Of a stretch of DNA of 6,333 nucleotides, positions 1-6,333 are shown piece by piece (the stretch's first letter is position 1; each line of letters begins with the position of its first letter). The position numbers were made by a program, and so were the translations under genes. Location of the stretch: assembly GCA_001799195.1 (NCBI GenBank), contig MGSU01000268.1, positions 1 to 6,333 of the forward strand, given 5' to 3'. Origin of the DNA: Deltaproteobacteria bacterium RIFOXYA12_FULL_61_11 (GTDB lineage Bacteria > Bdellovibrionota_F > JAHFAK01 > YA12-FULL-61-11). The notes beneath the pieces are model-generated. The model made no database searches. It was not told where the DNA came from and saw nothing but the letters and a program-made list of their open reading frames with translations.

Positions 1-104
1 CGGACCGAGCAGCCGAATTGAGGCTGGAGGTCGCCGCGGGCCGTTGTCCGCACTGCTGGACTCCCTGCGAGGCCTATCTGGCCATCCTCGGGAATCTGTC
101 ATGA
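1..104 (+). CDS. 3' end of a radical SAM/SPASM-type protein (partial, enters from left edge)
   Basis: The frame starting at base 3 is open from the window edge to the TGA at 102-104 and encodes about 33 residues ending CPHCWTPCEAYLAILGNLS. The C-x2-C-W-x2-C arrangement (Cys codons at 45, 54 and 66), close to the C-terminus, is the typical last iron-sulfur ligand group of radical SAM proteins with a SPASM or twitch domain. The same spacing, with Trp in the same place, occurs at the end of the radical SAM gene at 1626-2573. The stop overlaps the next gene's ATG as ATGA, so the two genes are probably co-transcribed and translationally coupled. Only the tail is visible: the catalytic CxxxCxxC motif and the substrate class lie outside the window. 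The assignment therefore rests on one motif plus context. Confidence 0.7.
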   Translation, partial: DRAAELRLEVAAGRCPHCWTPCEAYLAILGNLS

Positions 105-1612
105 TAAGGCCCTCAACGGCCCGGCTCCTGCTTGTACCAGCCCTGCTGCTCGCGGGAATAACCCTGCTCGGCCCCTTCTTCCTGGGCCGAGACCTCTTGA
201 CCGTGGTTCCCTTGACCATGCTGGAGCGTCTGCAGGCCCTCGAACACCACCTCATCGGAGGCGGCGGCTGGCCGTTCGACGTCCCCGCGTTGGCCGGGGT
301 GCTGTGCTTGCAGGTGTTTCCGCGTTGGCCCCACGCCCCCTTCGTGCTCGGGATGCCGCTCTTGCTCCTCCTGGTCTATTTCGGCAGGAAGCAGGTGGCC
401 GCTCTTGGCCGCGTGCCCACCACGCCGCTGCTGTTCGTCTCCCTCGCCCTGACCACCCCCGGGGTATTGGCCCTGTTCCAACAGGCTGGTCCCGAGAGCT
501 TCAGCGCGGTGGTCTTCGCCGCCCTGGTGCTGCTGTGCCGGTCTCCGTTCTCTCCAGGCCGTCTGGTTGCCGCTCTGGCCTGCCTCGCCCTGGCCTCCGG
601 ACTGCAGCCCTTCGCCGTGGTCGCGTGCGCAGCGATCCTTGGCCTGGCTGGCGCGACAACTGGTCGGGCCCTCGCGCTGCGGACCCTGGGCTTCGTCTTC
701 CTCGCCCTCACCAGTCTCGTGGTAGTAGTGCAGCAGTCCTCGTTCCTCGGGGATCCGCACCTCACGGAACTCTTCTCGCAAGAGAGCGGGGCGTGGCCGA
801 CCTCCGGCCTCTCTCCCGGTTGGTACCTGCTCGGCCCGTTCCTCGCCCTCTGGCATACCCTCGGACCCGGGCTCGTGGTCCTCTTGTTGGCGGGTCTCTG
901 GCCTGAACGGGGGCGCGGCCTCGATCTGCGCGTCTGGCGTCCCCTGGCGCTCTGGTTCGCGACCCTTCTCCCGTTCTATGCCCTTGGCCTCGGCAGCGGC
1001 CACCATGCCCAGGCCCTCGCCGTGCTGCTCGTGCCCGCGTGCATGTCCTACCTGGACAAACCCGGTGTTCGTTACCGCAGAATAGCCGTGGCCGTGCTCC
1101 TCGTTCACGCCGTACTCCTCCTCCTGGCCCTGCGGCCGCAGGGTCCACCGCTCCTCGGGGTCTTCCCCGAGCGCCGCGCCCGCGAGGTCCTGCTCGGTTA
1201 CCTCCCGAGCCGCCAACCCGGTCTCGACCTCTCGGTCGACCTAGAGCCGCTCCTCAGGGGGTTCCCCTCTCCCGGCGGAGGCAACATCGCCCTGCTCGGC
1301 TGCGGACCCGTCGACGGCCTTGCCGTGGAACTGCTGCGCTACCTTCTGCAGCGTCAAGCTCCTCCGGGGCTCGCTATTGTCCATGCTCTTGATTTCTCAC
1401 CGGATAGCGGCGACATCGACCTCTTCGCCTCGCTTCCACCAGGCTTCGCGACCCGCGCCCTCCTGGTCACTCCGAACTGGGACTGGGGAGCTGGCGCGGA
1501 GTTGCGGCAGCGCTGTCGCGAGATCGTCGACGGCCCGGGGACCTCTGCAGAAGTCCCGCTGGTCGTGGAGAGCCTGGGTCTGGGCCTCGAGGTTATTACC
1601 GTCTCGCCCTGA
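101..1612 (+). CDS. Polytopic membrane protein, GT-C glycosyltransferase-like shape, with soluble C-terminal domain
   Basis: A 503-residue inner-membrane protein. Hydrophobic segments lie roughly at residues 8-28, 79-95, 108-128, 133-147, 154-184 (perhaps two), 193-210, 240-264, 279-296, 302-317 and 327-345. Residues 346-503 form a mostly soluble tail containing a strand-and-glycine stretch (NIALLGCGPVDG, about 395-406). A long first loop after helix 1 and a late helix of the form HHAQALAVLLVPA recall GT-C (GT39/GT83-like) enzymes, which use polyprenyl-phosphate sugars. However, the usual acidic pair after helix 1 is not clear (only Asp31 is suggestive), so the activity is unproven. The frame stays open upstream to the window edge through a TTG at 44. 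The ATG at 101 is preferred because it overlaps the upstream stop as ATGA and begins directly with the first helix. It converges on the minus-strand operon with 13 bases between stops. Confidence 0.75.
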   Translation: MIRPSTARLLLVPALLLAGITLLGPFFLGRDLLTVVPLTMLERLQALEHHLIGGGGWPFDVPALAGVLCLQVFPRWPHAPFVLGMPLLLLLVYFGRKQVAALGRVPTTPLLFVSLALTTPGVLALFQQAGPESFSAVVFAALVLLCRSPFSPGRLVAALACLALASGLQPFAVVACAAILGLAGATTGRALALRTLGFVFLALTSLVVVVQQSSFLGDPHLTELFSQESGAWPTSGLSPGWYLLGPFLALWHTLGPGLVVLLLAGLWPERGRGLDLRVWRPLALWFATLLPFYALGLGSGHHAQALAVLLVPACMSYLDKPGVRYRRIAVAVLLVHAVLLLLALRPQGPPLLGVFPERRAREVLLGYLPSRQPGLDLSVDLEPLLRGFPSPGGGNIALLGCGPVDGLAVELLRYLLQRQAPPGLAIVHALDFSPDSGDIDLFASLPPGFATRALLVTPNWDWGAGAELRQRCREIVDGPGTSAEVPLVVESLGLGLEVITVSP

Positions 1613-1625
1613 AGCGAGCGTACTA

Positions 1626-2573
1626 TCAACCCAACACGCGCCGCAGCAGGGTTTGGGGCAACCATCCCCCGTAGCGGGAGAGACCCAGGTCGAACCCGCG
1701 TTGGCAGCGCAACCAGCAGCCGTTGCAGGTCCAGGCTGCCCTCCGGAGTTCCCTGGCCCGGGGAGCGTTCCAGATCAAGTCGAACCGTCGCTCGCGGACG
1801 TTGCCGAGGACTGCCTCGGGACGCTTCTTGCAGAGCCGCACCGAACCGTCCGGATAGATCGTGGTCACGTAGCGCACGCTGGTGCAGGGCAGGGAGACCT
1901 TTCCGGCCAACCAGCGATCGTACAGAGCGGCGAAGGGTTGCAAGCCCTCTTGTACACCGAGCGGGGCCTCGGGAAAGGGGGCCCCGAGGTAGGACACCTG
2001 GGAATACACGTTGTGTTCCACCCGAACTCCGTGCTCCCGGGCGAAGCGCTCGACGAAGTGGAGATCCGCGGGTCTGCTCCGGCTGGAGAGGGTCTGGTTG
2101 AGGACGACCTCGGTCAGACCGCGCGCCGAGGCCAGGAGCTTCTCGAGGGCTCCGAGGTCGCTGCCGCTGCGCAGTTCCTCGTTGCGCTCCGGCGGACCAT
2201 CCAAGGAGAGTATGAGCCGGCGCAACTTGTGTCTCCTGACCGCTCGGAGGACCAGCTCGGGCAGGGAGGCGTTGCTGAACAGGACCACCGGCCTGCCGTC
2301 GAGCAGGTCGAGCAGTTGCTCGTGCTGGGAATAGAGGAAGAACTCGCCGCCCTCGAGGATGAAGGTCGCTCCGGCTAAGCTCGCCGCGGGCAGCACGTTG
2401 CGGGCCAGGAACTCGAGTTCGAGTTCGCCGCCGGGTTGCTCCCAGGACCGGCAGTGGCGGCAACGCAGGTTGCACGCGAGCGTGGGGAGGATCCAACAGA
2501 AGAGGACCCTTCCACGCGCCAGAGTGCGGAGATCATGAGCCGAGGGCAGAGGTGCTGCGAGCGGCAAGCGCAT
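1626..2573 (-). CDS. Radical SAM protein with C-terminal SPASM/twitch-type domain
   Basis: A 315-residue protein. The radical SAM 4Fe-4S motif CNLRCRHC is at residues 34-41 (Cys34, Cys38, Cys41), and a GGE motif, typical of SAM binding, is at 75-77. ILSLDGPP at 121-128 is a standard core strand of the TIM-barrel. Auxiliary-cluster cysteines follow the SPASM order: Cys230, Cys248 after YPDGSVRLC, then CNGCWLRC (283, 286, 290). LGNVRE...W between them is also typical. Enzymes of this kind use SAM to make a 5'-deoxyadenosyl radical and often modify peptides or small molecules; the substrate is not evident. The ATG at 2573 has a GGGAG ribosome site at 2580-2584 and is the only standard start before the cluster motif, which implies a 41-bp overlap with the end of the upstream cobalamin-type gene. 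It is the last gene of the minus operon. No peptide-like precursor gene is visible beside it. Confidence 0.9.
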   Translation of the reverse strand: MRLPLAAPLPSAHDLRTLARGRVLFCWILPTLACNLRCRHCRSWEQPGGELELEFLARNVLPAASLAGATFILEGGEFFLYSQHEQLLDLLDGRPVVLFSNASLPELVLRAVRRHKLRRLILSLDGPPERNEELRSGSDLGALEKLLASARGLTEVVLNQTLSSRSRPADLHFVERFAREHGVRVEHNVYSQVSYLGAPFPEAPLGVQEGLQPFAALYDRWLAGKVSLPCTSVRYVTTIYPDGSVRLCKKRPEAVLGNVRERRFDLIWNAPRARELRRAAWTCNGCWLRCQRGFDLGLSRYGGWLPQTLLRRVLG

Positions 2574-4020
2574 GGGCGGCTCCCGTGAGGATCCGTGCCG
2601 ACAACCCCGGTCCGAGTACCTGCCCGAGGTTGAGCAGGAAGAGGGTGCTCAGTGCCTGATGGAGGTCCTTGGCCCGCACGTCGGCCGTGAAATTGGCCCC
2701 GCCGAGGCGGCCATTGGCAAGGTCCTCGTAGAAGCGCCCCCAGGCGGTGAAATCCGAGGGGGGACGCCAACCGTCCTTGACCAACCTGGCCAGGAGCGGC
2801 GTGCCCGGGACCGGACGGAAGAGGTGAGGATAGAAGCTCACGCCCATCCTCCTGCCAAGTCCCCGGCGGCCGCGTAAGGCCAGCCGTCGGCACAAGGTAA
2901 GGGTTTCGGCGAGGTCGGCCCTGGTCTCGCCCGGTTGGAGCAACATCAAGTTGAAGGACACCGAGAGCCCGTGGTCGGCCGCGGCTTCGATAAAGCGTTC
3001 GACCCGCGAGAGCTTCCCGAGCTTGGGAATGGCCGCGAGTTGACGGACCGAGCCGGTTTCGAGGCCGGTGTAGAGGAAGCTGCAGCCCGCTTCGGCCAGG
3101 AGGGCCAGGGTTTTGTCACTGACCCCCACCGTCGTCCCGGTCCAGAAAGGGAACTTCCGGCGCGAGGCGATGAGGCCCGTGAGCAAGTCCTGCAACCGTT
3201 CCTCCTGCCCCCCGACATTGGCGTCGAGGAAATAGAGCCGGGTTGCCGCGCCCTGCGGCACCATACCCGCAAGGTGGTCGATTTCCTCGAGGATCCGCGC
3301 AACCGGCCGGTAGCGCCAGACGACCCGTCGTTCGAACCCGCTGAGGTAACAGAAATCGCACAGGTGGGGACAACCTCGGGAGAATTCGATCCCGATGGAA
3401 CGATACTCGGCCAGATCCACCAACTCGTGCTTGGGCACGGGCAACTGTCCGAGGTCCCCGACCTGGGCCGGTGGGGTGAGCACCACTGAACCGTCCCGAC
3501 GGTAGCAGACCCCTTCGGCGGGCATGGCCGCATTCCTTCCGGCGAGATGGTCGAGGACCTGCGGCAGGACCAGGTCCACCTCGCCACGGCACACCACGTC
3601 GGCGCAGGTGGTGAGCAACGAGCGCTCCGGGTCCAATCCGACGTGGACCCCTCCCAACACGACGGCCGCCCGGAGTCGGGCCTTCCAGGCCTTCGCCTTG
3701 CGCTCGATCCAGAGCAGATTGCCCCCGCCGGGACAGGCGAAACCCAGGACCTCGGGACGCCAGGCGAGCACGTCGGCCTCGAGGTCGCGGAGCAGGAAGT
3801 TGAAGATACGCACCTGATGGGTCGAAGCAAGCATGGTACCGAGCTGCACGAGGTTGCTCGGGTAGAAATCGAAATCGACCAGGCCGAAGCGCCGTACCAA
3901 GGGATAGATCCAGGGGTTCCAGAACGGCCGCCCCCGGGCCAGGTCGTGAAGAAAGCGGAAGGCGCTATTCGAACCCGGTCCTGCCGAGGTCAAGGGCGGC
4001 ATGATCAGGGCGACTCTCAT
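2533..4020 (-). CDS. B12-binding-domain radical SAM enzyme
   Basis: A 495-residue protein with the layout of the cobalamin-dependent radical SAM class. The N-terminal domain (about 1-180) begins MRVALIMPP and carries VLGGVH at 121-126 and CRGEVD at 144-149, the strand-loop signatures of B12-binding domains. No classical DxHxxG motif is present, which is common in this class. SRGCPHLCDFC gives Cys217, Cys221 and Cys224 as ligands of the SAM cluster. Further family marks are YTGLETGS at 317-324, LQPGETRADL at 361-370 and PVPGTPL at 403-409. Relatives are methylases or ring- and chain-modifying enzymes; this one's substrate is unknown. The start is secure: AGGAG (4027-4031) lies six bases before the ATG, and ATG overlaps the glycosyltransferase stop as ATGA. 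It is the middle gene of the operon, translationally coupled on its 5' side and overlapping the next gene by 41 bp. Confidence 0.92.
   Translation of the reverse strand: MRVALIMPPLTSAGPGSNSAFRFLHDLARGRPFWNPWIYPLVRRFGLVDFDFYPSNLVQLGTMLASTHQVRIFNFLLRDLEADVLAWRPEVLGFACPGGGNLLWIERKAKAWKARLRAAVVLGGVHVGLDPERSLLTTCADVVCRGEVDLVLPQVLDHLAGRNAAMPAEGVCYRRDGSVVLTPPAQVGDLGQLPVPKHELVDLAEYRSIGIEFSRGCPHLCDFCYLSGFERRVVWRYRPVARILEEIDHLAGMVPQGAATRLYFLDANVGGQEERLQDLLTGLIASRRKFPFWTGTTVGVSDKTLALLAEAGCSFLYTGLETGSVRQLAAIPKLGKLSRVERFIEAAADHGLSVSFNLMLLQPGETRADLAETLTLCRRLALRGRRGLGRRMGVSFYPHLFRPVPGTPLLARLVKDGWRPPSDFTAWGRFYEDLANGRLGGANFTADVRAKDLHQALSTLFLLNLGQVLGPGLSARILTGAAHALAARSTSALGS
2580..2584 (-). promoter_or_regulatory. 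Ribosome binding site deciding the start of the SPASM radical SAM gene
   Basis: GGGAG on the minus strand, six bases before the ATG at 2573. It lies inside the last codons of the upstream gene and supports the overlapping start rather than a later one, since no ATG, GTG or TTG follows in frame before the CNLRC motif. Confidence 0.65.
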
Positions 4021-4706
4021 CGCATGCTCCTGGTCGGACCTGCTCCAGGCCCAGGTTGTAAAAGCCGACGGCCGAGGAGCACCGTCAGGCTCACGAGCTC
4101 GGGTAAACCATAGCGAGAGCCGGGGGGCGAAGCATCGAGGAGTTCGACCTGCGCGAGCCGCAGACCCCCAAGACGGGGGATGAGCGCTGGCAGACCTCCG
4201 CTCTCTCTCGCAAGGTCGAGGGCCTTCCCGGAGAGGAGTTTGGGTCCCCCGAGGTCGCGCAACCAGCGCCGCGCGCGGAGCGAACAGAGCAGATTGAAAC
4301 CCACGCTGCCCACCCTTCGCAGCGGACCGGTACGGCGTCCCCGGCGCGACCCGAAGACCAGCTCGGCGCCGCGTTCGGCCTCGGCTAAGAACAGAGGTAG
4401 GTTGTCCACCGCCCAGGCTTGGTCGTCGTCGAACACGGCCACCCGTTCGCCAAGCGTGAGTTCTAGGCCGGCCTGGATGGCCGCGTGTTGGCCGCGTCGC
4501 TGGTCGAAGCGCACCAACCTGACGAAGGACATGGTACTAGCGAGTTCGTCGAGAACGCGCCGGGTAGGTGAGGCGCTGGCGTCATCAATCAGGATCAGCT
4601 CGCAGCTCGCGACCAAAGGGCCTAGCCTGGCCACCCGTTCGCATAACGCCACAATCCCAGTTCCTCCATCCCTCACCGGCACCACCACGCTGAGGTCCAT
4701 CCTCAC
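4017..4706 (-). CDS. Family 2 glycosyltransferase, polyprenyl-phosphate-sugar synthase type
   Basis: A 229-residue GT-A-fold enzyme. The nucleotide-sugar strand LSVVVPVRDGG is at 5-15, LILIDDASASPT at 37-48 (Asp41, Asp42), RRGQHAAIQAGL at 70-81, the metal-binding DDD at 93-95, and FGSRRGRR at 118-125. The late PPGSRYGLPEL at 194-204 matches the G-x-S/R-K/R-Y element of dolichol-phosphate-mannose synthase and ArnC-like enzymes. These move a sugar from a nucleotide donor onto a membrane polyprenyl phosphate. Unlike ArnC it has no clear C-terminal pair of membrane helices, only a modest hydrophobic stretch at about 201-216, so it would be cytoplasmic or peripheral. Starts are GTG at 4706 or ATG at 4700 (MDLSVV); the ATG gives a more typical N-terminus, and a stop at 4737-4739 blocks longer forms. 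It is the first gene of the minus operon. Its product could feed the GT-C-shaped protein at 101-1612, by inference. Confidence 0.88.
   Translation of the reverse strand: MRMDLSVVVPVRDGGTGIVALCERVARLGPLVASCELILIDDASASPTRRVLDELASTMSFVRLVRFDQRRGQHAAIQAGLELTLGERVAVFDDDQAWAVDNLPLFLAEAERGAELVFGSRRGRRTGPLRRVGSVGFNLLCSLRARRWLRDLGGPKLLSGKALDLARESGGLPALIPRLGGLRLAQVELLDASPPGSRYGLPELVSLTVLLGRRLLQPGPGAGPTRSMR
4027..4031 (-). promoter_or_regulatory. Ribosome binding site of the B12 radical SAM gene
   Basis: AGGAG on the minus strand, six bases upstream of the ATG at 4020 and inside the glycosyltransferase 3' end. With the ATGA stop/start overlap it indicates re-initiation by ribosomes finishing the upstream gene. 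Confidence 0.7.
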
Positions 4707-4767: not shown

Positions 4768-4800
4768 CCTGGAGCTTCTTGTCGTGGTACCTTCAATGTG

Positions 4801-4946
4801 CAGCAACGGTAGGTCTGCATCCCTGCCGCCATCACCGTTGCTTTCTGCATCCTGCAGCAACGGTAGGTCGGCATCCCTGCCGCCACCACCGTTGCTTTCT
4901 GCATCCTGCAGCAACGGTAGGTCGGCATCCCTGCCGCCACCACCGT
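4801..4946. repeat. Tandem 54-bp repeat, 2.7 copies, each full copy an imperfect hairpin (REP-like)
   Basis: Copies begin at 4801, 4855 and 4909. Copies 1 and 2 differ at two of 54 positions (4816/4870 and 4832/4886). Copy 3 matches copy 2 for 38 bases and then stops at 4946. Within a unit, AGCAACGGT pairs with ACCGTTGCT (9 bp; 4802-4810 with 4834-4842, and 4856-4864 with 4888-4896). Inside that, GG/CC and CGGCA/TGCCG close a TCCC tetraloop. The second full copy folds best; copy 1 has one mismatch in the inner stem, and copy 3 has lost part of its right outer arm. The structure resembles dispersed palindromic (REP/RAYT-type) elements, but no transposase is present. It could act on mRNA stability, on transcription into the neighbouring operon, or be a relic. 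Confidence 0.9.
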
Positions 4947-4953
4947 CACGTCG

Positions 4954-4973
4954 AAAAAAGAAGGACCCTTCTT
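4954..4973 (-). terminator. Hairpin plus T-run on the minus strand, terminator-like
   Basis: Read on the minus strand, AAGAAG and CTTCTT (six pairs) enclose the loop GGTC and are followed by a run of six T in total, the first two shared with the stem. The form is that of an intrinsic terminator, but the stem is short and AT-rich. No minus-strand gene is seen upstream of it; it could stop antisense reading coming out of the AT-rich island before the repeat block. Confidence 0.3.
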
Positions 4974-5012
4974 CCAGGTCAGCTCTTTGGTGATGTGCGA
5001 GGAAGGCCTTGG

Positions 5013-5063
5013 TGCGTCTATTTTCTCGCGTGGGGCTTCCTTGCTTGCCGTCAATTAGACGCA
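5013..5063. repeat. Spaced 8-bp inverted repeat
   Basis: TGCGTCTA (5013-5020) and TAGACGCA (5056-5063) are exact inverted copies separated by 35 bases. They lie just before the composition change. A regulator site or a mobile-element end are both possible, and chance is not excluded. Confidence 0.35.
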
Positions 5064-5108
5064 ATGATAACCTTGCCCGCATGGAGAGGGTTGTGATGAG
5101 GGATGCGT

Positions 5109-5127
5109 GTGGAAACAGCGTGGAAAC
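5109..5127 (+). promoter_or_regulatory. Direct repeat GTGGAAAC x2, 11-bp period
   Basis: GTGGAAAC occurs at 5109-5116 and 5120-5127, so the two copies sit one helical turn apart. They lie 42-60 bases before the lipoprotein ATG, where an activator or repressor site would be expected. No good promoter boxes are visible beside it. Confidence 0.35.
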
Positions 5128-5150
5128 CGAGTCCGACCCTTTTGTTTGTT

Positions 5151-5168: not shown

Positions 5169-5762
5169 ATGCTCATAAAAACACTTGAAATTGAAATGTA
5201 TATCATATTATTCATTCTGTTATCTGGGTGCAAATACTTCACTTCCGAGGGAACTCATGTTGATGCAGGTATTTCCTTTTTGCTTTCAGTATCTGTGTAT
5301 GACAATGATAACGATCAGCCTCTGAAGAATTATGATATACATTTTATCGATCTTGGAATTAATCCAACTATTAAAAAGCAAAGAGAAGTACGATCCATTA
5401 TTGATGATACTCCTAGTTTTCAATTAATGTGTTCGTTTACCTATATGTTTGGATATATTAAAGAACAAATTGATACTAGCAAAAAAGATGAATTTGTTAT
5501 TGAAATACAAAAATTTGGTTTTTTACCAAGAAAGATCCATATTGCATTGACTGAATTAAAAAAAATACATGCATACAATCCACACATTGAGAGTACAGGT
5601 CCGTTCTATTTCGTAAATCTCGGAAAAATAACATTAATCAAAGACAATGCAATCAATATTATACAACCCAACAAAGATAATAATCAATTCCAACAATGTA
5701 CAGAATATACATTGGAATGGCAGTTTAATAGTCTCCCTATTGTTCCTGATGCAACAGAATAA
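5169..5762 (+). CDS. Predicted lipoprotein with a beta-sandwich-like domain, function unknown
   Basis: A 197-residue protein from AT-rich DNA. Residues 10-20 are hydrophobic and end in the lipobox LSGC, so Cys21 is the likely lipidated residue and the mature protein would be anchored to a membrane and face outward. The n-region is odd, with Glu7 and Glu9 beside Lys4. A shorter start at residue 10 (ATG 5196) removes the acids but leaves no basic residue and lacks a ribosome site. The body alternates short strands: SVSVYDNDNDQPLKNYDIHFID (residues 40-61), then FVIEIQKFGFLPRKIHIAL (109-127). These resemble the start and end of a carboxypeptidase-regulatory-like or Ig-like sandwich (V-x-V-x-D...PL-x-N/G...; GF-x-P/R-x-I-x-I). 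This is shape recognition, not a family match. A later stretch, 144-197, ends in EYTLEWQF. No enzyme motif is visible. The next plus-strand gene is 142 bases downstream. Confidence 0.8.
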   Translation: MLIKTLEIEMYIILFILLSGCKYFTSEGTHVDAGISFLLSVSVYDNDNDQPLKNYDIHFIDLGINPTIKKQREVRSIIDDTPSFQLMCSFTYMFGYIKEQIDTSKKDEFVIEIQKFGFLPRKIHIALTELKKIHAYNPHIESTGPFYFVNLGKITLIKDNAINIIQPNKDNNQFQQCTEYTLEWQFNSLPIVPDATE

Positions 5763-5904: not shown

Positions 5905-6318
5905 ATGAATACACTATGGCGAATAATCGCGGGAATGATTATCGGTCCCGTGGTGATAAATATAATAATAATATTGATATATTATCTATTTCAGCAAAGT
6001 GCATTGGATGATGGCCAAGCATTGTTGGTTGTAATTATCCCTATTCTTCCTGGAATGCTACTTGGCGTGTGCACAATGTGTCTTGGAAGAACCCCCAAAA
6101 CCAAGTTGGACTTTATTCTATCGCGGCTCTTCCCACTGTGTCCTCAGCACTGCGATAATGCCGTCCGTATACTGGGGAAAAGCATGGAAAGCACGTCGCG
6201 ACCCACAAACCCTCGCCTTTCGGGCGCACCTCTCCCGTCCTCGCGCGGCGCTGAAAAGACGGCCGAGATCCTGGCTCAGTCTTTTTGCGATGCGTCGGCG
6301 TGGCGGCAGGGAGTCTGA
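5905..6318 (+). CDS. Small two-helix membrane protein whose frame runs on into GC-rich DNA (probable 3' fusion or truncation)
   Basis: The 137-codon frame has two parts. Residues 1-70 are AT-rich and encode two membrane helices (about 7-29 and 39-61) joined by a short acidic loop (ALDDGQ), then a basic GRTPKTK end. This is the usual form of bacterial inner-membrane proteins of some 70-80 residues. From about residue 71 (base 6115) the DNA becomes GC-rich and the protein turns Ser/Pro/Arg-rich without secondary-structure pattern. The second half is probably not native sequence but a run-on frame across a junction. The ATG at 5905 has no strong ribosome site (GGTG at 5891-5894 at best). The function is unknown; it could be an accessory partner of the lipoprotein upstream. 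The N-terminal part is more certain than the end. Confidence 0.5.
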   Translation: MNTLWRIIAGMIIGPVVINIIIILIYYLFQQSALDDGQALLVVIIPILPGMLLGVCTMCLGRTPKTKLDFILSRLFPLCPQHCDNAVRILGKSMESTSRPTNPRLSGAPLPSSRGAEKTAEILAQSFCDASAWRQGV

Positions 6319-6333
6319 CCTCCACGCGCCGGA
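6115..6333. other. GC-rich segment right of the island, no supported gene of its own
   Basis: Composition returns to GC-rich near 6115. Besides the run-on of the small membrane protein, a frame from ATG 6158 stays open to the window edge (MPSVYWGKAWKARR...), but it is Arg-rich and has no ribosome site. A minus-strand frame (6113-6325) is equally unconvincing. A terminator-like hairpin lies at 6254-6286. Imperfect inverted arms (6296-6303 with 6322-6331) lie at the end. What follows beyond the edge would decide whether a gene starts here. Confidence 0.4.
6254..6286 (+). terminator. Rho-independent terminator candidate
   Basis: AAAAGAC (6254-6260) pairs with GTCTTTT (6279-6285). An inner GCC/GGC can close the loop, and the right arm ends in five T. 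It could end plus-strand transcription from the AT-rich island genes, but it lies before the nominal stop at 6318, which also argues that the last codons of that frame are not native. Confidence 0.35.

Follow-up and report, generated by a model that had tools for sequence, protein, structure and literature searches.

A lineage-specific cluster of radical SAM and glycosyltransferase genes, and its possible role in tailoring a lipid-linked sugar

We have analyzed a 6,333 bp stretch of DNA, termed here the window, in which five closely packed genes (1-4706) bring together radical SAM enzymes, a family 2 glycosyltransferase (GT2) and a membrane protein. The cluster is real, coherent and lineage-specific, and it is one case of a pairing of radical SAM and glycosyltransferase genes that is frequent in its own genome; its gene content, the coupling of the genes and the families of the proteins B, C and D are observed directly. 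The reading of the cluster as a pathway is partly supported. We tentatively favor the view that it would provide radical tailoring of a lipid-borne sugar, or of one in a growing surface glycan.

Results

Five genes are tightly packed on two facing strands

The window is an entire contig (C268), with positions 1 and 6333 at the contig ends. It comes from a metagenome-assembled genome of 4.64 Mb in 342 contigs, with an estimated completeness of 87%. Genes X and A lie on the forward strand, and B, C and D face them on the reverse strand, with a gap of 13 bp between the convergent ends of A and B. The stop codon of X and the start codon of A overlap in the sequence ATGA (101-104, + strand), as do the stop of D and the start of C (4017-4020, - strand), and the end of C runs over the start of B by 41 bp (2533-2573, - strand). 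The list of open reading frames had a lower limit of 60 amino acids and thus omitted X, which was recovered by a six-frame motif scan. Between them, the list and the scan account for all five of the coupled genes in the preliminary description, and the three overlaps that it reported are read directly from the DNA.

Two proteins with SPASM-type tails

The contig begins inside X, of which only the 3' end remains (1-104, + strand), apparently encoding the C-terminal tail of a radical SAM protein of the SPASM type. Its reading frame (frame 3, positions 3-104) encodes DRAAELRLEVAAGRCPHCWTPCEAYLAILGNLS, closed by a TGA stop at 102-104. The tail, CPHCWTPCEAYL, is 50% identical over 30 amino acids to the C-terminus of a 357 amino acid protein from another genome (G036), with a phmmer E value of 1e-5 against a set of open reading frames. 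X is classed as a probable radical SAM protein from its last 33 residues, the sole part present on the contig. The G036 protein contains the CX3CX2C motif, and missed the Pfam cut-offs for both Radical_SAM (24.7 bits, cut-off 29.5) and SPASM (21.1 bits, cut-off 21.5).

B (1626-2573, - strand) encodes a 315 amino acid radical SAM protein with a SPASM domain, both matched above their Pfam cut-offs. The Radical_SAM match (PF04055; E = 4e-8, 34.0 bits, cut-off 29.5) includes the core motif CNLRCRHC, of the form CX3CX2C, and that to SPASM (PF13186) has E = 2.4e-10 and 41 bits (cut-off 21.5). The tail contains five cysteines, at residues 230, 248, 283, 286 and 290. B can be aligned over its full length with the G036 protein at 26% identity, including a TLLRR end common to both, and so B, X and the G036 protein look like members of one loose subfamily. 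The C-x2-C-W-x2-C spacing with its tryptophan, which had been noted as shared by two SPASM-type tails, is located in X (CPHCWTPC, 45-68, + strand) and B (CNGCWLRC, 1704-1727, - strand); these are the only two occurrences in the six frames of the window. The sole match of B among genome contigs, in a Mycobacterium (L032), was rejected as spurious, comprising 23 residues inside an ABC-transporter gene.

A B12-binding radical SAM protein

C (2533-4020, - strand) encodes a 495 amino acid radical SAM protein with an N-terminal domain of the B12-binding type. Both domains exceed their Pfam cut-offs; Radical_SAM (PF04055) is found with E = 7e-18 and 65.8 bits (cut-off 29.5) and the core motif CPHLCDFC, preceded by B12-binding (PF02310) with E = 4e-9 and 36.8 bits (cut-off 32.1). 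These domains, and a model that fits the structures of B12-binding radical SAM enzymes, bear out the earlier assignment of a cobalamin-type enzyme. With C, the claim of three radical SAM proteins in the cluster holds, B and C being recognized by Pfam and X, as a probable member, by its tail of 33 residues. The cobalamin motif DxHxxG is absent from C, and only two of 25 aligned relatives contain the pattern, outside the B12 domain. Many radical SAM proteins of the B12-binding type lack DxHxxG, so that its absence is not decisive for the use of cobalamin.

The AlphaFold2 model of C, calculated from an alignment with 25 relatives taken from the fetched loci, has a pLDDT of 84. The closest solved structure is that of AprD4 (Z = 29.5 over 405 residues, 24% identity), followed by MgmA (Z = 28.2). 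AprD4 acts on a sugar, and a sugar substrate for C is thereby plausible, though no more than that, since the structures that come next have proteins, small molecules and nucleotides as their substrates. Many B12-binding radical SAM families of NCBIfam score against C, the best being ApyD (111 bits) and then HpnJ (75 bits), with a ladderane family at 57 bits, and none comes near its equivalog cut-off. C thus scores alike against RiPP, lipid, hopanoid and other families, and the fold leaves the substrate unfixed. No homolog of C above 33% identity was found in about 290 genomes, where the matches at 33% were partial; a second set of 385 genomes, largely overlapping the first, gave nothing closer, nor did the genomes of the phyla of G036 and G219. 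Plasmids gave general matches to B12-binding radical SAM proteins at less than 30% identity.

A glycosyltransferase related to polyprenyl-phosphate sugar synthases

D (4017-4700, - strand) encodes a 227 amino acid family 2 glycosyltransferase, matching Glycos_transf_2 (PF00535) with E = 2.7e-17 and 63.6 bits and containing FDDD, a metal motif of the DxD type. Its longest frame opens at a GTG at 4706. The start is probably the ATG at 4700, because the sequence GGGTGAGG, resembling a ribosome-binding site, stands before it. Among proteins of the PDB the best sequence match is ArnC (2e-9), followed by the GtrB-like Sll0501, PglI and dolichol-phosphate-mannose synthase, and an ArnC-like GT2 encoded elsewhere in its own genome can be aligned with D over 205 residues. 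Comparison with NCBIfam gave MftF as the best family (47.6 bits, cut-off 280). No transmembrane helix is predicted in D, and the C-terminal membrane helices of the ArnC and GtrB type are missing. Soluble polyprenyl-phosphate sugar transferases, such as DPM1, do exist. The description of D as a polyprenyl-sugar synthase therefore stands in part: its closest relatives are of that kind and it is a GT2 with an FDDD motif, but it lacks the membrane helix.

A membrane protein of nine predicted helices

A (101-1612, + strand) encodes a 503 amino acid protein in which hydropathy analysis predicts about nine transmembrane helices, followed by a C-terminal soluble alpha/beta domain. It has no match in Pfam, NCBIfam or the PDB, and no homolog in 290 genomes; a single-sequence AlphaFold2 prediction was uninformative (pLDDT 45). 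The preliminary description called this protein GT-C-shaped. There are nine transmembrane segments, but none of the tests run lends support to that description. Against a custom GT-C hidden Markov model the score of A equaled those of shuffled sequences, in a test that two held-out GT-C candidates likewise failed, and no relation to GT-C proteins emerged when A was compared with them pairwise or by profile, with hhalign powerless here in that a likely GT-C control failed too. To call A a GT-C protein is thus a guess, made from its overall shape and its neighbors.

Radical SAM and glycosyltransferase genes are frequently paired in the same genome

The genome contains 135 radical SAM domains in its 4.64 Mb, compared with 15 in the sole other genome of the same class (2.2 Mb). 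Seventy of the 135 have another within 3 kb, where 21.5 would be expected. Glycosyltransferase genes are also found close to them. Of the 31 GT2 genes, ten have a radical SAM domain no more than 2 kb away, one of the ten being the GT2 of the window's own pair; 3.2 would be expected (P about 0.0005), in a simulation that kept the observed clustering of radical SAM domains and ignored contig ends. The probabilities for the other distances, which were tried together with this one, are 0.0015 at 1.2 kb and 0.0085 at 3 kb. Uniform placement gives a modest excess at 3 kb, with 10 observed against 5.6 expected.

Individual loci show the same association. On contig C71 an ArnC-like GT2 gene is joined by an ATGA overlap to a B12-binding radical SAM gene, beyond which lies an asparagine-synthase-like amidotransferase gene of the exosortase/polysaccharide type. 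On C139 (L112:1255-3834) a single reading frame encodes first an HpnJ-like B12-binding radical SAM protein (207 bits) and then a GT2 domain (98 bits), which are thus fused. Proteins of the GT-C class confirmed by Pfam (PMT_2 type, above cut-off) adjoin radical SAM genes on C271, C298 and C119; on the last of these (L094), two radical SAM genes of the B12 type lie between membrane proteins, one a clear PMT_2 GT-C and the other a weak match. A cluster on C336 (11000-30000; L064) contains about seven radical SAM genes, one of them related to TrsS and to the tetraether lipid synthase Tes. Also present there are a membrane protein that is likely to be a GT-C and a gene resembling those of FAD amine oxidases. 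Given the excess of GT2 neighbors, the C71 locus, the C139 fusion and the GT-C neighbors, the window is one example of an arrangement that recurs in this genome. An open frame of 1,107 codons on C280 (L058:2-3325) contains two separate radical SAM domains.

The families, and not these genes, recur in other genomes

An orthologous cluster, with the five genes in the order of the window, was not found in the sets of genomes searched (about 290, and an overlapping set of 385); the preliminary description had proposed a search for co-occurrence of the five families in that order, and the order was not seen elsewhere. Just one other genome of the same class was included in the sample of relatives, the remainder being related at the level of the domain, so that close orthologs would not be expected. 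As no orthologous cluster was found, conservation of the cluster rests on families, and not on these particular genes.

The most informative locus comes from a genome unrelated to that of the window (G025, contig C115), and was fetched for its protein of the G036 type, resembling B and X, rather than for its neighbors. There, a tight operon on one strand encodes a SPASM-like radical SAM protein, a GT2, a B12-binding radical SAM protein and a GT-C; the genes are 19 and 12 bp apart at two junctions and overlap by 28 bp at another. The GT-C is TMEM260-like (PF11028, 1.3e-42), and the SPASM-like protein is matched by Radical_SAM, with no score for SPASM. The operon sits in a polysaccharide locus, with further glycosyltransferases and another B12-binding radical SAM gene downstream. 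This uncharacterized operon has the same families as the window in a tight arrangement. It differs in lying on one strand, in its gene order, and in being non-orthologous, with its GT2 and GT-C belonging to other subfamilies.

Other loci are more varied. In G058 two SPASM radical SAM genes lie between GT2 genes, together with an LPG_synthase_TM protein and several GT-C genes of the PMT type. The X-like gene of G036 is near a B12-binding radical SAM gene, two carbamoyltransferase genes and a gene for a 9-TM protein. A locus in G045, fetched in the same manner as that of G025, has a different context without recognized glycosyltransferases. Where general homologs of B were taken without selection, 5 of 20 loci had a GT2 neighbor and 3 of 20 a B12-binding radical SAM neighbor, compared with 2 and 0 of 20 control stretches. 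In the literature on radical SAM enzymes with polysaccharide clusters, or on SPASM-glycosyltransferase clusters, we found no description that matches the window.

Discussion

The preliminary description suggested a dedicated modification pathway. The part of this that is best supported is that a glycan or a lipid-linked sugar is modified, for which the G025 operon and the pairing of the gene families within the genome provide the evidence; these particular genes were not found elsewhere. In the pathway that we tentatively favor, we infer the substrate, the reactions, the order of the steps and the role of A as follows. Working at the inner face of the membrane, D would take the sugar from a nucleotide sugar and attach it to a membrane lipid, which is probably polyprenyl phosphate. 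C and B, whose translation is coupled to that of D, would then make a radical change to the sugar or the lipid, with C-methylation, deoxygenation or ring rearrangement as candidate reactions for C, and oxidation, epimerization or bond formation for B. A, coupled to X in the facing transcript, may carry out a membrane step on the product, possibly the transfer of the sugar to an acceptor. The ATGA overlaps of X with A and of D with C, and the 41 bp overlap of C with B, indicate coupling and are consistent with this scheme. Against a single pathway, A and the D-C-B unit are on facing strands, an arrangement that does not require joint expression. Genes for a flippase, a sugar-nucleotide enzyme or an acceptor are absent from the contig, and the carrier, transporter or peptide precursor that the preliminary description proposed to seek among the neighbors is not visible because the contig ends.

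Elements of this scheme can be seen in known systems. In hopanoid biosynthesis HpnI and HpnJ act in turn, the glycosyltransferase placing a sugar on the lipid and the B12-type radical SAM enzyme turning that sugar into a cyclitol ether (PMC12583986); HpnJ is listed with the small number of B12 enzymes that do not methylate (PMC13142503). The HpnI/HpnK/HpnJ pathway thus resembles that proposed for the window in its order of action, and C matches HpnJ weakly. However, C reaches 75 of the 577.6 bits required for that family (TIGR03471), D has no match to HpnI, and the window has the extra SPASM enzymes B and X. No match to squalene-hopene cyclase (PF13243) was found in the 87% complete genome, and membership of a hopanoid cluster is unsupported. 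AprD4, the best structural match of C, is a radical SAM diol dehydratase of the apramycin pathway that acts on a sugar ring, removing a hydroxyl group from paromamine (PMC5461906). Here MgmA is close behind in the structural comparison, C scores 53 bits against an NCBIfam cut-off of 500, and the genes of the window do not include an AprD3-type reductase that could serve as a partner. ArnC and ArnT offer a third comparison, with ArnC the best sequence match of D and A, if it is a GT-C, in the place of ArnT. The differences are that D lacks the C-terminal membrane helices, that A has no sequence link to GT-C proteins, and that radical SAM enzymes stand in for the formyl and deformyl steps.

The same enzymes could act instead in a RiPP pathway, or one leading to a peptide-derived cofactor, in which D adds a sugar to a short precursor that is also modified by B, C and X, on the model of mycofactocin. 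SPASM and B12-binding radical SAM enzymes are common as RiPP maturases, and the best NCBIfam matches of C and D are ApyD (111 bits) and MftF (48 bits), but these scores lie far below the family cut-offs of 750 and 280 bits. Membership of a mycofactocin system is not indicated, with 47.6 of 280 bits for D against MftF and 17.3 of 265 bits for B against MftC. The 13 bp gap and three overlaps leave no space for a precursor between the five genes, which makes a RiPP pathway less likely, and matches to known families of precursors or transporters were absent. A precursor might still lie beyond the contig end that cuts X. On balance we consider this pathway unlikely. The tailoring of a membrane lipid of hopanoid, ladderane or tetraether type, in which D would make the head group of a glycolipid while B and C work on its hydrocarbon part, would fit the matches of C to HpnJ (75 bits) and to the ladderane family (57 bits), and the genome does contain the Tes/TrsS-like protein within its cluster of seven radical SAM genes on C336. 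Yet every one of these matches is far below its equivalog cut-off, squalene-hopene cyclase was not found in a genome that is 87% complete, and the window has no isoprenoid or fatty-acid gene; this reading appears doubtful.

It might also be that there is no common pathway, and that unrelated transcripts, X-A and D-C-B, have met by chance in a genome rich in radical SAM genes. With 135 such domains, of which 70 have a neighbor of the same kind at 3 kb or less, encounters of this kind could arise, A is convergent to B, and the test of unselected neighborhoods was weak (GT2 at 5 of 20 loci against 2 of 20). But the overlaps of start and stop codons speak against chance within each unit, GT2 and radical SAM genes adjoin each other above the level of chance, and the G025 operon has the same set of families. 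We judge a purely fortuitous arrangement to be quite improbable.

The scheme might be extended. This isolated lineage may use an expanded set of radical SAM enzymes, a good many of which have a glycosyltransferase as local partner, to produce more than one kind of radical-modified glycan or lipid-linked sugar, with the window as one module and A as a new family of membrane sugar transferase. This is speculative, and we hold it with little confidence.

Few radical SAM enzymes that act on carbohydrates have been characterized, most of them from antibiotic clusters. Radical SAM genes that lie beside glycosyltransferase genes, or are fused to them, would be a source of enzymes for the C-methylation, deoxygenation and ring rearrangement of sugars, and a genome such as this one could reveal a little-studied layer of bacterial glycan chemistry, to which the link is genomic only. 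The pairing across the genome is of more interest than the cluster itself.

Other features of the contig

Beyond the cluster, the window is AT-rich between 5160 and 6090 (about 28-34% GC, the rest of the contig being near 66%), which could reflect either horizontal acquisition or a chimeric join. An open reading frame for a lipoprotein-like protein (5169-5762, with the motif ILLSGC), without a Pfam match, lies inside this stretch. Dispersed repeats border it at 4845-5150 and 6095-6333, and have about 50 partial copies in the genome. Some of these copies are located at contig ends, and the repeats may thus account for the fragmentation of the genome. A tandem repeat of 54 nucleotides is found upstream of D (4799-4946), in 2.7 copies that are 97% alike.
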